A stretch of DNA of 64,000 nucleotides from Actinomycetota bacterium. GTDB lineage: Bacteria; Actinomycetota; JAHEXW01; JAGVPG01. This document shows positions 3,675 through 36,685 of the stretch, piece by piece; the first letter of the stretch is position 1; every line of letters begins with the position of its first letter. Location: contig JAGVPG010000033.1 in NCBI GenBank assembly GCA_020052375.1, positions 1-64,000 on the forward strand, in the 5' to 3' direction. The position numbers were made by a program, and so were the translations under genes. The notes below the pieces were generated by a model that searched no databases, was not told where the DNA came from, and was given only the letters and a program-made list of their open reading frames with translations.

Positions 3675-4697
3675 TTGGCAGACGTGAAAAAACAAAACAA
3701 GATCATTATTGCCGCTGTTGCAGGGGTATTGATTGCTCTGATCGCGGGTATTGCAGTGTGGTACTTTTATAACCAGAACAAAGAAGCAAAGGCCAAAAGC
3801 GCATATGAACAAAAGATCAAGAAAATCTGGATTGAAGTGATAAAAGACAGCGATGGCATAAAGAAGATCCTTGGCAATCCGGCCAAAGACAGCGATCTGC
3901 AGAAGCTCGACGACGACGCCCGGATCTTGGAAAAGTCCGTCAGACGGAAGATATCAGAGCTTAAGATGATCAAGGCTCCCAACGGTTATGATGAACCGGG
4001 GACTAAGCTCAAGAAAGGCTTAGACGCCTATGCCGTATACCTTGCTTATCTGCAGAACGATGTTCTATACAAAAGCATCGACAACATAAAGATCCCTGAG
4101 GACATCGATGAGGCTCAAAAATACGCTGATGTGGCTCGCGTAGATTTTGCCGCTTTTGACAATGCGTACGAGTTTATACAAGAAAGAGTAAGTGATGAGG
4201 TTTTCGACCTGTCTCAACTTAGGGATTACATCGATAACTGGCAGTCAAAAGCAGCCGAAGAGGCTGAGAAAAAAGCCGAGCAAGCGGCAGCGGCCGAAGC
4301 GGCTCAACGAGCCGCTTACGAAGCGTCGATAAAACAAGCCGCGGAAAAAACAGCCCAGGATTTCATAAACGGCCTGGCAGGTGTTTATCAATCGTCGCCG
4401 AACGATCTTTGGACAGGCGCGCAGCGTGTCGCCGATCAATATTGGACGACGGCGTCCATTAACAACTTCACCAATGACTACAAAAAGTATTTTGATAATG
4501 CGATGGGCCGTCCGACCTATACAGGCGGAAAAATAATTCAAAGTGAGAAGGTCAGCGATAGCAAGTTTAATGTATCGGCGGAGGAAGGAGAAAGGCTCGA
4601 CACAGCTCCGGGCAGCCCCGAAACCAAGTACCTGAACTACTTTATCGTAGAGAGAATCGGCTCCGGCTGGTTTATAACCAGCCACGGAAGAAAATAG
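3675..4697 (+). CDS. Membrane-anchored coiled-coil protein, unknown
   Basis: 340 aa from a TTG start behind AAGGAGG. One membrane anchor at residues 9-31 (IIIAAVAGVLIALIAGIAVW) is followed by an extracytoplasmic region. Residues 45-190 are helical; an Ala/Glu/Lys-rich coiled coil covers about 192-225 (EEAEKKAEQAAAAEAAQ). The C-terminal 100 residues form a compact domain ending WFITSHGRK, similar in layout to small NTF2-like or DUF4878-like folds. I do not recognise the family. It ends 9 bp before the ABC transporter genes and may be an accessory subunit. Confidence 0.6.
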   Translation: MADVKKQNKIIIAAVAGVLIALIAGIAVWYFYNQNKEAKAKSAYEQKIKKIWIEVIKDSDGIKKILGNPAKDSDLQKLDDDARILEKSVRRKISELKMIKAPNGYDEPGTKLKKGLDAYAVYLAYLQNDVLYKSIDNIKIPEDIDEAQKYADVARVDFAAFDNAYEFIQERVSDEVFDLSQLRDYIDNWQSKAAEEAEKKAEQAAAAEAAQRAAYEASIKQAAEKTAQDFINGLAGVYQSSPNDLWTGAQRVADQYWTTASINNFTNDYKKYFDNAMGRPTYTGGKIIQSEKVSDSKFNVSAEEGERLDTAPGSPETKYLNYFIVERIGSGWFITSHGRK

Positions 4698-4706
4698 GGG
4701 GCATAG

Positions 4707-5582
4707 ATGAACGTAATCGAGACGAAGAAGCTGACCAAGTATTATGGCAAATCAAGAGGTATCATCGAGGTAGACATCAACGTAGAAGACGGTGAGATCT
4801 ATGGGTTCATCGGCCCTAACGGCGCGGGCAAATCGACGACGATCCGGGTCCTCCTTTCATTGATCTACGCTACCAGCGGCACCGCCACGATATTCGGCAA
4901 AGACGTCGTCAAGTTCGGGCCGGAGATAAAGAAAGAGATCGGTTATCTGCCGGGCGAGGTCTTTTACTACGACACCATGCGGGTAAAGGACCTGCTGAAC
5001 TACTCCGCGAGTTTTTACAAAAAAGATTGCTCCAAGAGGATCAAGGAGCTTGCCGGGATCATGAGTCTGGAATTGGACAAGAGGATCGACGACCTTTCGT
5101 ATGGAAACAAGAAAAAAGTCGGAATAGTGCTGGGACTTCTGCATGAGCCAAAACTAATAATCCTGGATGAGCCCACCGGCGGTCTGGATCCCTTGATGCA
5201 ACAGACGTTCTTTAATCTGGTAAGGGAAGAGAACAAGAAAGGGGCAACGGTATTTCTCTCCTCTCATATTTTGAGCGAGGTCCAACGGCTCTGCGACAAG
5301 GTCGCTATCATCAAAGAGGGCAAGATCGTCAAGATCGAAAAGATGAGCGATCTGGCGCAAAGCAATTACAGCAAAATCAAGGTCGAATCCAAAGCCGCCA
5401 TACCCGAAGGATATTTCGATATGGCAGGTGTCAGCGGCCTGAAGACCGAAAATCATTCGACTACCTTTATGTTCAAAGGGGATATCAATTCTGTAACCAA
5501 GAAAATCGCAGCGTTGGATCTTGTAAGCTTATTTGTCGAAGAGCCGGACCTGGAAGATATCTTCTTGCACTACTACCAATAG
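4707..5582 (+). CDS. ABC transporter ATP-binding protein
   Basis: 291 aa. Walker A GPNGAGKST at about residue 37, Q-loop region after IGYLPGE, a signature-type stretch LSYGNKKKVGIVLGLL, Walker B KLIILDEPTGGLDP and switch His in FLSSHILSE. The signature deviates from LSGGQ (LSYGN), as is common in ABC-2 type drug and antibiotic exporters. It powers the two permeases encoded next. A C-terminal domain of about 80 residues follows the nucleotide-binding domain. Substrate unknown. Confidence 0.9.
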   Translation: MNVIETKKLTKYYGKSRGIIEVDINVEDGEIYGFIGPNGAGKSTTIRVLLSLIYATSGTATIFGKDVVKFGPEIKKEIGYLPGEVFYYDTMRVKDLLNYSASFYKKDCSKRIKELAGIMSLELDKRIDDLSYGNKKKVGIVLGLLHEPKLIILDEPTGGLDPLMQQTFFNLVREENKKGATVFLSSHILSEVQRLCDKVAIIKEGKIVKIEKMSDLAQSNYSKIKVESKAAIPEGYFDMAGVSGLKTENHSTTFMFKGDINSVTKKIAALDLVSLFVEEPDLEDIFLHYYQ

Positions 5583-15217: not shown

Positions 15218-15259
15218 AGTGAACAGTGAACAGTGAACAGTGAACAGTGAACAGTGAGG
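15218..15259 (+). repeat. Period-7 tandem repeat (AGTGAAC)n
   Basis: Five perfect copies of AGTGAAC followed by a sixth, AGTGAGG. The same unit recurs at 31481-31508 and, in two units, at the 3' end of panC (58548-58560). Located between divergent genes. Confidence 0.85.
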
Positions 15260-31480: not shown

Positions 31481-31508
31481 AGTGAACAGTGAACAGTGAA
31501 CAGTGAAT
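31481..31508 (+). repeat. Period-7 tandem repeat (AGTGAAC)n between hypA and hypB
   Basis: Three full AGTGAAC copies and a fourth partial one ending GTGAATAG, four bases after the hypA stop. Same unit as at 15218-15259. Confidence 0.8.
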
Positions 31509-34260: not shown

Positions 34261-34311
34261 CTAGTAGCTAGTAAATAAGAGACTTAAGCCACAAGCTACA
34301 AGCTACAAGCT
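34258..34311 (+). repeat. Period-7 repeats after topA
   Basis: TAGCTAG twice (34258-34271), the first including the topA stop codon, then ACAAGCT three times (34291-34311). Lies between topA and mdh. Confidence 0.7.
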
Positions 34312-34333
34312 AAAACTATAAGGTAGGATCAGT

Positions 34334-35257
34334 ATGAATAATAAGGTTGCGATCATAGGGACAGGACACGTTGGAGCGACAGCCGCTCATGTGATAGCCC
34401 AACGCGAGCTAGCGGATGTAGCCCTGATCGACATCGTTGAAGGAATGGCGAAGGGCAAAGCGATCGATATCATGCAAGCAGCGGCCATACAGGGTTCGGG
34501 GATCGAAATCACCGGCGGAGAAAGTTTCAGCCTTGTGGAAGGATCGGATATAGTCGTCATAACAGCCGGTTTTCCCCGTGGTCCGGGCATGTCGCGCAGC
34601 GATCTGATCAACAAGAACGCTCCTGTAATAGAGTCTGTGATCGAAAAGGTCAACGCACATGCGCCGGACTCGATAATCGTCATAGTCACGAATCCAGTGG
34701 ATGAGATGACGCTGTTCGCTTTCAATAAAAGCGGACGTCCGAGGTCGAAGGTCTTCGGTATGGGCGGTGCTCTGGATACAGGGCGGTTCATATATTTTAT
34801 CAGCCGCAGGCTGGGTGCGGATGCATCGGATGTGGAAGCCATGGTAGTCGGTGCTCACGGTGACGCTATGATCCCTCTTGTACGCCAGGCTAAGGTGAAA
34901 GGCGAACAGCTTGCCGATCTCTTGGACCCGCTCGAGATGGATGAGCTGGTAGAAAGCACAAAGAAAGGCGGGGCTCAGATCATATCGCTCCTCAAGCAAG
35001 GCAGCGCTTTCTACGGTCCGGGAACAGGTGTCGCCTCTACTGTCGAAGCAATCGTAAAGGATACGCGGGAAGTGATCCCTTGCTGCGCCGTCCTCGATGG
35101 GGAGTATGATGTCAGCGGGACAAGCATAGGCGTACCCGTTATGATAGGCAGGGAAGGAATCATCAAGATAGTCGAGACCGACCTGTCGGATGAAGAGACG
35201 GCGGTGTTCATGGAATCAGCGGTGTCGATCAGGCAAGCTCTCGAATCGATCGGATAG
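34334..35257 (+). CDS. mdh: Malate dehydrogenase
   Basis: 307 aa. NAD-binding IIGTGHVGATAAHVIA; the mobile-loop Arg in GFPRGPGMSRSDL selects malate over lactate; VTNPVDEMT and the catalytic His in GAHGDAMIPL follow. It belongs to the LDH-like malate dehydrogenase group. It interconverts malate and oxaloacetate and is followed at once by both fumarase subunits, forming a unit for the oxaloacetate-malate-fumarate segment. The binding site AGGAT precedes the ATG. Confidence 0.93.
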   Translation: MNNKVAIIGTGHVGATAAHVIAQRELADVALIDIVEGMAKGKAIDIMQAAAIQGSGIEITGGESFSLVEGSDIVVITAGFPRGPGMSRSDLINKNAPVIESVIEKVNAHAPDSIIVIVTNPVDEMTLFAFNKSGRPRSKVFGMGGALDTGRFIYFISRRLGADASDVEAMVVGAHGDAMIPLVRQAKVKGEQLADLLDPLEMDELVESTKKGGAQIISLLKQGSAFYGPGTGVASTVEAIVKDTREVIPCCAVLDGEYDVSGTSIGVPVMIGREGIIKIVETDLSDEETAVFMESAVSIRQALESIG

Positions 35258-35258
35258 C

Positions 35259-36107
35259 ATGTCAAGGATCATAAGAACGGAAGAGATCGCTAAAGCGGTA
35301 TCGCGGCTATGCCGGGATGCCAACCTCAAGCTGTCAGACGATGTCTACAGTGCCCTCCAAAACGCGTTAAGCATGGAAGAATCCTCGTTCGGTAAGGAAG
35401 TCCTGACTGAATTGATAGAAAACGCGGAAACGGCCGCCGAACTCGAGATACCTATTTGCCAGGACACCGGGTTCACGATCGTCTTCATCGATATGGGACA
35501 GGATGTTCACATCGAAGGCGGCGGTCTTAAAGATGCTGTCGACGCGGGAGTCCGCGAAGCCTACAGATCATCTCATTTCCGGACATCGGTAGCGGATGAC
35601 CATATCTTTTCACGTAAGAACACAGGTGATAATACACCATCTATCCTCCATCTGGAAATGGTCCCGGGAGACGTATTCAAAGTCACCGTCATGATCAAAG
35701 GTGGAGGAAGCGAAAGCGTCGGGCGTGCCGGTGTCTTAAAACCGGCGGAGGGGAAAGAAGGCATCAGGCGTTTTGTCTTAGAGACGGTCGAGGCGGCGGG
35801 ACCGAACCCTTGTCCGCCGATCATCGTCGGGGTAGGATATGGCGGTACGACCGACTACGCCGCTTATCTTGCTAAGAGGGCTTTGCTAAAGTCACTCGAT
35901 GAAAAGAATCCGGATCCGAATCTGGCGGAGTTGGAACAGGACCTCTTGGATTCGATAAACCGGCTCGGCATAGGACCGGCGGGTATGGGCGGCCGGGTTA
36001 CGGCGATAGCGACAAAGATAGCTACGCATCCTTCGCATATCGCGACAATGCCTGTGGCTGTTGATATCAGTTGTTACGCTTTAAGAAGAAAAAGTGTACA
36101 GATATGA
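35259..36107 (+). CDS. fumA: Fumarate hydratase class I, alpha subunit
   Basis: 282 aa from the ATG at 35259, one base after the mdh stop; a longer frame would overlap mdh without reason. The N-terminal domain of two-subunit class I fumarases/tartrate dehydratases: CQDTGFTIVFIDMG with the first cluster Cys, KGGGSESVG, and GGTTDYAAYLAKRALL; further cluster Cys in GPNPCPP. An oxygen-sensitive [4Fe-4S] hydratase interconverting malate and fumarate. Encoded with its beta subunit, overlapping by 4 bp. Confidence 0.92.
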   Translation: MSRIIRTEEIAKAVSRLCRDANLKLSDDVYSALQNALSMEESSFGKEVLTELIENAETAAELEIPICQDTGFTIVFIDMGQDVHIEGGGLKDAVDAGVREAYRSSHFRTSVADDHIFSRKNTGDNTPSILHLEMVPGDVFKVTVMIKGGGSESVGRAGVLKPAEGKEGIRRFVLETVEAAGPNPCPPIIVGVGYGGTTDYAAYLAKRALLKSLDEKNPDPNLAELEQDLLDSINRLGIGPAGMGGRVTAIATKIATHPSHIATMPVAVDISCYALRRKSVQI

Positions 36108-36685
36108 TAGATAACAGGGAACAGGGAACAGGGAATAAATATATAGAGCTGACAACGCCGCTTGTCGATAAAGATGTTGAACAATTGAGGGTTGGAGACC
36201 GGGTTTTACTGTCAGGGATTGTGTATACGGCGAGAGATGCCTCGCAGCGTCATATTGTAGAGGACCTGGAGGCCGGGAAAGAACTACCTGCTGACCTGAA
36301 AGGCCAGGTCCTATACTATACAGGTCCTTCTCCGGCAGGTCCGGGGCGGGTGATCGGATCGGCGGGTCCTACGACAAGCGCAAGGATGGATGTATATGTA
36401 CGTACGATGCTGGAACTTGGCGTGAAGGGCTTCATCGGTAAAGGCAGACGCTCGATGGATGTCCGGGATGACTTAAAAACGTACAAAGCGGTATATTTCC
36501 TGGCGACTGCCGGCGCGGGCGCGCTGCTTAGCCAGCACATAACGGCGGCCAAGGTCATCGGGTATCCTGAACTGGGACCGGAAGCGGTCTACGAACTTCA
36601 GCTGGATAGGTTCCCTTTGATAGTCGGCGATGATACCTATGGAGACGACATGTTTGAGAGGGAGTGGCCTCGATGGAAGAGATAA
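36104..36685 (+). CDS. fumB: Fumarate hydratase class I, beta subunit
   Basis: 193 aa from the ATG overlapping the alpha-subunit stop (ATGA). Normal homologues start near KYIELTTPLVDKDVEQLRVG. Here that is preceded by MIDNREQGTGN, encoded by a 7-bp tandem repeat (AACAGGG). No start codon remains nearer the conserved part, so translation now begins upstream of the repeat. The remaining domain is standard: YYTGPSPAGPGRVIGSAGPT and GFIGKGRRS. Supplies part of the active site to the alpha subunit. The gene symbol is provisional, as naming of two-subunit class I fumarases varies. Confidence 0.88.
   Translation: MIDNREQGTGNKYIELTTPLVDKDVEQLRVGDRVLLSGIVYTARDASQRHIVEDLEAGKELPADLKGQVLYYTGPSPAGPGRVIGSAGPTTSARMDVYVRTMLELGVKGFIGKGRRSMDVRDDLKTYKAVYFLATAGAGALLSQHITAAKVIGYPELGPEAVYELQLDRFPLIVGDDTYGDDMFEREWPRWKR
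36113..36140 (+). repeat. Period-7 repeat (AACAGGG)3 inside fumB
   Basis: Three perfect AACAGGG copies and a diverged fourth (AATAAAT), lying within the first dozen codons of the fumarase beta subunit. Confidence 0.8.

Follow-up and report, generated by a model that had tools for sequence, protein, structure and literature searches.

A heptanucleotide repeat at the fumA-fumB junction encodes the N-terminal tail of a class I fumarase beta subunit

Among the long simple-sequence classes of bacterial DNA, the heptanucleotide is the most abundant in the majority of genomes that contain many of these repeats, according to the account of Mrazek et al. 2007 given in PMC4679880. The closest described systems comprise (i) these heptanucleotide LSSRs; (ii) the TAACTGA direct repeats of marine Beggiatoaceae (MacGregor, PMC4679880); (iii) the GGGAATC and GGGGA(C/T)T repeats of Xanthomonas and Nostoc, respectively, which vary in length and sequence but, in related species, are mostly found between the same pairs of genes (Rehm et al., PMC4692102); and (iv) the heptanucleotide tracts of Haemophilus influenzae, which mediate phase variation, repeats there being scored from three copies upwards and 13-38 copies being present in the tracts associated with switching (PMC2651432, PMC8262952). 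The array described here, at the junction of the fumarase genes fumA and fumB, is a heptanucleotide simple-sequence repeat of this known kind, translated at the edge of a protein. It represents one of many short heptanucleotide repeats in this genome, probably derived from an ancestral array at the junction and translated as a tail that is most likely tolerated, with the reading frame likely held by purifying selection.

The window, meaning the whole stretch of 64,000 nucleotides analysed, includes the following features at and upstream of the junction:

34334-35257, + strand: mdh, malate dehydrogenase, upstream of fumA in the same conserved gene order.
35259-36107, + strand: fumA, class I fumarate hydratase alpha subunit (PF05681; NF004885), with its TGA stop at 36105-36107.
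36104-36685, + strand: fumB, class I fumarate hydratase beta subunit, 193 residues including the repeat-encoded tail (PF05683; TIGR00723).
36104-36106, + strand: ATG start of fumB, read from the sequence, overlapping the fumA TGA as ATGA; the related genome G001 has the same overlap.
36113-36135, + strand: (AACAGGG)3.3 heptanucleotide array, translated as NREQGTGN; 36110-36137 when the degenerate edge units are included.

Both genes encode secure class I fumarase subunits and adjoin the malate dehydrogenase gene, FumB displaying the Fumerase_C domain of the two-subunit beta class next to its alpha-subunit partner. From the fumB ATG, the sequence runs through ATA GAT, three AACAGGG units plus AA, and then TAAATATATAGAG, giving the N-terminal translation M-I-D-N-R-E-Q-G-T-G-N-K-Y-I-E-L-T-T-P-L. 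TRF reports a period of 7, 3.3 copies and a 100% match, and in the GRNAAYA register the tract reads as four units, GATAACA GGGAACA GGGAACA GGGAATA, the outer two degenerate. The sequence-only reading had placed the start of translation at the ATG overlapping the alpha-subunit stop, with passage through (AACAGGG)3 adding MIDNREQGTGN to a conserved protein that begins at KYIELTTPL without a start codon of its own, and both points are borne out: no ATG, GTG or TTG lies in frame between the repeat and KYIELTTPL, and from the last upstream stop (36062) to the FumB domain the only in-frame candidates are the ATG at 36104 and a TTG at 36071, inside fumA. With no such codon between the fumB ATG and the conserved fold, NREQGTG is translated. 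The ribosome would re-initiate at ATGA after fumA, from a start codon upstream of the array and within the fumA stop, and, because AACAGGG lacks a stop triplet in all frames and three units amount to 21 bases, it would read through the array and add the tail MID-NREQGTG-N ahead of the conserved fold.

The AlphaFold model of FumB, computed with an alignment of 19 homologues, displays a mean pLDDT of 91, with residues 1-9 below 50 and the block 11-20 averaging 92; the tail is thus probably disordered. The N-terminus comprises 18 residues before the conserved Pro, the longest among the homologues compared, against 6-11 in most other FumB homologues, and the in silico loss of exactly three units (21 bp) leaves MIDNKYIELTTPL, an N-terminus of ordinary length. 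The length in relatives had been proposed as the test of a repeat-derived extension, and the outcome is divided: G002, L046 and L047 contain no translated heptamer array and have 15 residues, so part of the length does not come from the repeat. G001 also has 15, or 16 counted from its first Met. Searching GTDB contigs with the FumB protein yielded only four further homologues. Most likely, FumB simply tolerates the tail as a passenger, presumably neutral, a reading that requires no regulatory use.

The fumB array has many counterparts in this genome. Arrays were counted as period-p runs with at least 10 matches, against order-3 Markov resamples as the null; none of the resamples held a period-7 run of this length, so the fumB array is not a product of chance. 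Three further arrays in the window are:

15218-15257: (AGTGAAC)5.7 array, intergenic, of the same repeat kind.
31481-31507: (AGTGAAC)3.9 array between two same-strand genes; the spacer is not period-7 in G001 or G002.
34291-34312: (ACAAGCT)3.1 array in the spacer upstream of mdh; the spacer is not period-7 in G001 or G002.

The window holds six period-7 arrays, while none of the other periods between 4 and 30 has more than one. A 420 kb sample, about a quarter of the 35-contig draft genome, holds 27 (Markov expectation 0), with at most seven at every other period from 4 to 21, and this enrichment makes the fumB array one member of a genome-wide heptanucleotide repeat set. The two order-mates are poor in such arrays (2 in 300 kb of G001, 1 in 276 kb of G002; rate difference P = 6e-8). 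By placement, 15 of the 27 arrays are intergenic, about seven touch a gene end and five lie mainly inside supported genes, the latter two classes being assigned by our own reading; against a coding fraction of 83%, five inside genes gives P = 3e-13 against an even spread, with genes called by a simple codon-usage method and overlapping genes mostly checked with Pfam. The set therefore shows the attributes of heptanucleotide LSSRs, with head-to-tail 7-base units beyond chance, 7 as the over-represented length and a mostly non-coding location. The units vary within the genome, including AGTGAAC, AACAGGG, AGGGAAA, AGCAAGA, TGAAGGA, CGACTCA and others, and those translated through whole arrays contain no stop triplets. 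The pattern (GNGAACA)3G occurs in 2 of 297 genomes of the phylum, this one included, so the unit is not a phylum trait.

A search with the CGACTCA unit disclosed about 13 arrays, several translated as RLTTHDS or variants. Translated arrays of this type occur in the genes for MnmA, GpmI, a phosphomannomutase-like protein and its partial duplicate, HypF and glycerate kinase, and are found at:

L066, 15772-15794: translated CGACTCA-type array.
L068, 2540-2568: translated CGACTCA-type array.
L134, L136, L143 and L150, near the locus centre: translated CGACTCA-type arrays.

Alignments with relatives place the MnmA, GpmI, phosphomannomutase and glycerate kinase arrays in variable loops; the glycerate kinase loop is of similar length in G001 and G002, so that this array is not a plain insertion. 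The stretch at C5:52981-53427 of this genome (L136) encodes 149 residues that match the phosphomannomutase-like gene at C5:31158-32609 over its N-terminal part, including the array, with 94% identity, and is, judged by this identity, a partial duplicate of that gene. Elsewhere in the genome, the N-terminus of ScpA (L077:15012-15060) is encoded by an ACTCACA heptamer array adjoining the start codon, a close parallel to FumB; this array is related to those of the CGACTCA type, and alignment with relatives confirms its N-terminal position. A GT2 glycosyltransferase gene (- strand, 4299-4967) has its GTG start apparently inside a (TGAGTCG)n array (L065:4953-4981), the end of which encodes the first residues, MSRESKSDHKIAV. 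Ribosomal protein S3 (L074:3853-4956) carries a long Lys/Glu-rich C-terminal extension including a (GGAAAAG) array. Following a RibD gene, a GTGAGTT array and an ACTCACT array lie in facing orientation, separated by about 55 bases (L062:8916-9007); they could pair as a hairpin that perhaps serves as a terminator.

A broader proposition, doubtful in our judgement, is that stop-free heptamer arrays have been a recurrent source of new protein sequence in this lineage, such that many housekeeping enzymes gain one fixed segment (NREQGTG, RLTTHDS) from three units, and new N-termini arise time and again from junction arrays. Since 7 is not a multiple of 3, all three frames of an array yield one and the same cyclic heptapeptide, and three units inserted anywhere would thus add the same seven residues.

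The age of the junction array was assessed in G001, which belongs to another family of the same order, and in G002, a member of the same genus as G001. Both keep the same gene order across the region that begins at the topA neighbours and takes in mdh, fumA, fumB and tmk. Where the fumB ATG overlaps the fumA stop in the same ATGA, G001 carries an (ACAACAG)2.4 array, ATGATGACAACAGACAACAGACCACAGACC, translated as MMTTDNRPQTAKSITTPL, whereas in G002 the fumA-fumB spacer spans about 60 bases and comprises a degenerate, untranslated period-7 tract past the fumA stop (12/14 matches, shuffle P = 0.002), followed by MKTQDQAQDINYITTPL. Two control spacers, array-bearing in this genome's window, display no period-7 signal in G001 or G002. 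Since both relatives carry arrays at the junction and none at the control spacers, the heptamer array at this site is probably older than the family split in the order, its unit having since changed, and we infer common ancestry. The proposal that FumB acquired its N-terminus by repeat expansion is accordingly retained in one part and weakened in the other: the N-terminus is repeat-encoded and unusually long, but the arrays of both relatives argue against a recent gain.

The alternative that survives best, though still an unlikely one, is that three units were recently inserted or expanded in this lineage within an ancestral MIDNKYIELTTPL start, independently of the arrays in G001 and G002. 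The removal of exactly 21 bp restores a normal-length N-terminus, the centre of the array is perfect, and the genome is rich in arrays where its two order-mates are poor and use different units. Against it, both order-mates carry heptamer arrays at this junction and none at the two control spacers; a G001 array would land within these 60 bp with a chance of about 4e-4, which by our own estimate rises to slightly less than 1% if gene junctions are the only places where arrays occur. Multiple origins may still have contributed, because G001 and G002, of one genus, differ at this site, and recurrence without common descent does occur, as a fumA-fumB spacer from Nitrospirota (L057:2867-3001) holds an unrelated (CGTGAGG)n heptamer array. 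An ancestral junction array remains the preferred reading.

A regulatory RNA or DNA element, acting as a protein-binding site or by altering ribosome loading and translated incidentally, appears improbable. The arrays of this genome do cluster at gene junctions, and MacGregor proposed translational regulation for the TAACTGA arrays of Beggiatoaceae (PMC4679880), but the units differ between arrays (AGTGAAC, AACAGGG, AGCAAGA, CGACTCA, TGAAGGA and others), against a single binding protein. The idea that the fumB tract on its own folds into a G-quadruplex was considered and rejected, because its three GGG runs cannot by themselves form a three-tier structure.

It is very unlikely that the array is an untranslated leader, with fumB starting past it at a non-canonical ATA (36141-36143). 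The sequence AGGG lies about 8 bases ahead of this ATA, and a homologue in L040 (G020), near 1501, has no ATG, GTG or TTG from the last in-frame stop to the FumB domain, its own candidate ATA start being preceded by GAGGTG; however, a product beginning MELTTPL would have a shorter N-terminus than almost every homologue, and a proper ATG exists in the ATGA overlap, conserved in G001.

In an in silico frame test, fumB is open only at 0, 3 or 6 copies of the unit; with 1, 2, 4 or 5 copies, the ATG yields a peptide of 6-18 residues and no other ATG, GTG or TTG start is available in the domain frame. A change of one unit (7 bp) thus shifts the frame and abolishes fumB, as had been predicted, and on in silico frame alone copy number would switch expression as at a contingency locus. 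A phase-variable fumB turned reversibly off and on by one-unit slippage is nonetheless the least credible reading, and the proneness to phase variation drawn from the frame shift finds no support, since, for all that heptanucleotide tracts act this way in H. influenzae (PMC2651432, PMC8262952), the fumB tract has 3.3 copies, three being the counting minimum in PMC2651432 and known switching tracts being longer (13-38 at the hmw loci, 14 in the one intragenic tract cited there), the enzyme belongs to core metabolism and is not a surface structure, and comparable arrays occur in unrelated genes and spacers. With a metabolic gene and the shortest tract counted as a repeat, purifying selection on the fumB frame, which would hold the copy number to a multiple of three, is likelier than switching.

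The locus represents a core metabolic enzyme with an N-terminus set by a simple-sequence repeat whose unit mismatches codon length, and indicates how such tracts survive: stop-free units, in multiples of three, placed at disordered edges or in variable loops. It also cautions that a short non-triplet repeat in a gene is not always a phase switch. The translated heptamer arrays across one small genome constitute a more useful outcome than fumB alone.

Compared with the bacterial heptanucleotide LSSRs, as Mrazek et al. 2007 is represented in PMC4679880 and PMC4692102, the arrays of this genome share the over-representation of 7-base units, the location mostly outside genes and the few copies, but differ in that the fumB copy lies inside coding sequence and the units vary within one genome. 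The TAACTGA direct repeats (MacGregor, PMC4679880) are likewise genome-wide 7-mers near start codons, with a minority inside ORFs, mainly at extreme protein ends; there, however, one unit dominates and forward repeats contain stops in all frames, whereas many units occur here and the translated ones are stop-free, and the fumB array, with its AACAGGG unit, falls outside that family. The Xanthomonas and Nostoc repeats (PMC4692102) are similarly intergenic heptamers near neighbouring genes, and form G-quadruplexes in vitro, for which the fumB tract has too few G runs. Finally, the hmw1A/hmw2A tracts of H. influenzae (PMC8262952, PMC2651432) resemble the fumB array in a 7-base unit adjoining a gene, the number of which could matter, but lie in an adhesin gene promoter and comprise 13-38 copies, whereas fumB carries its 3.3 copies in coding sequence.
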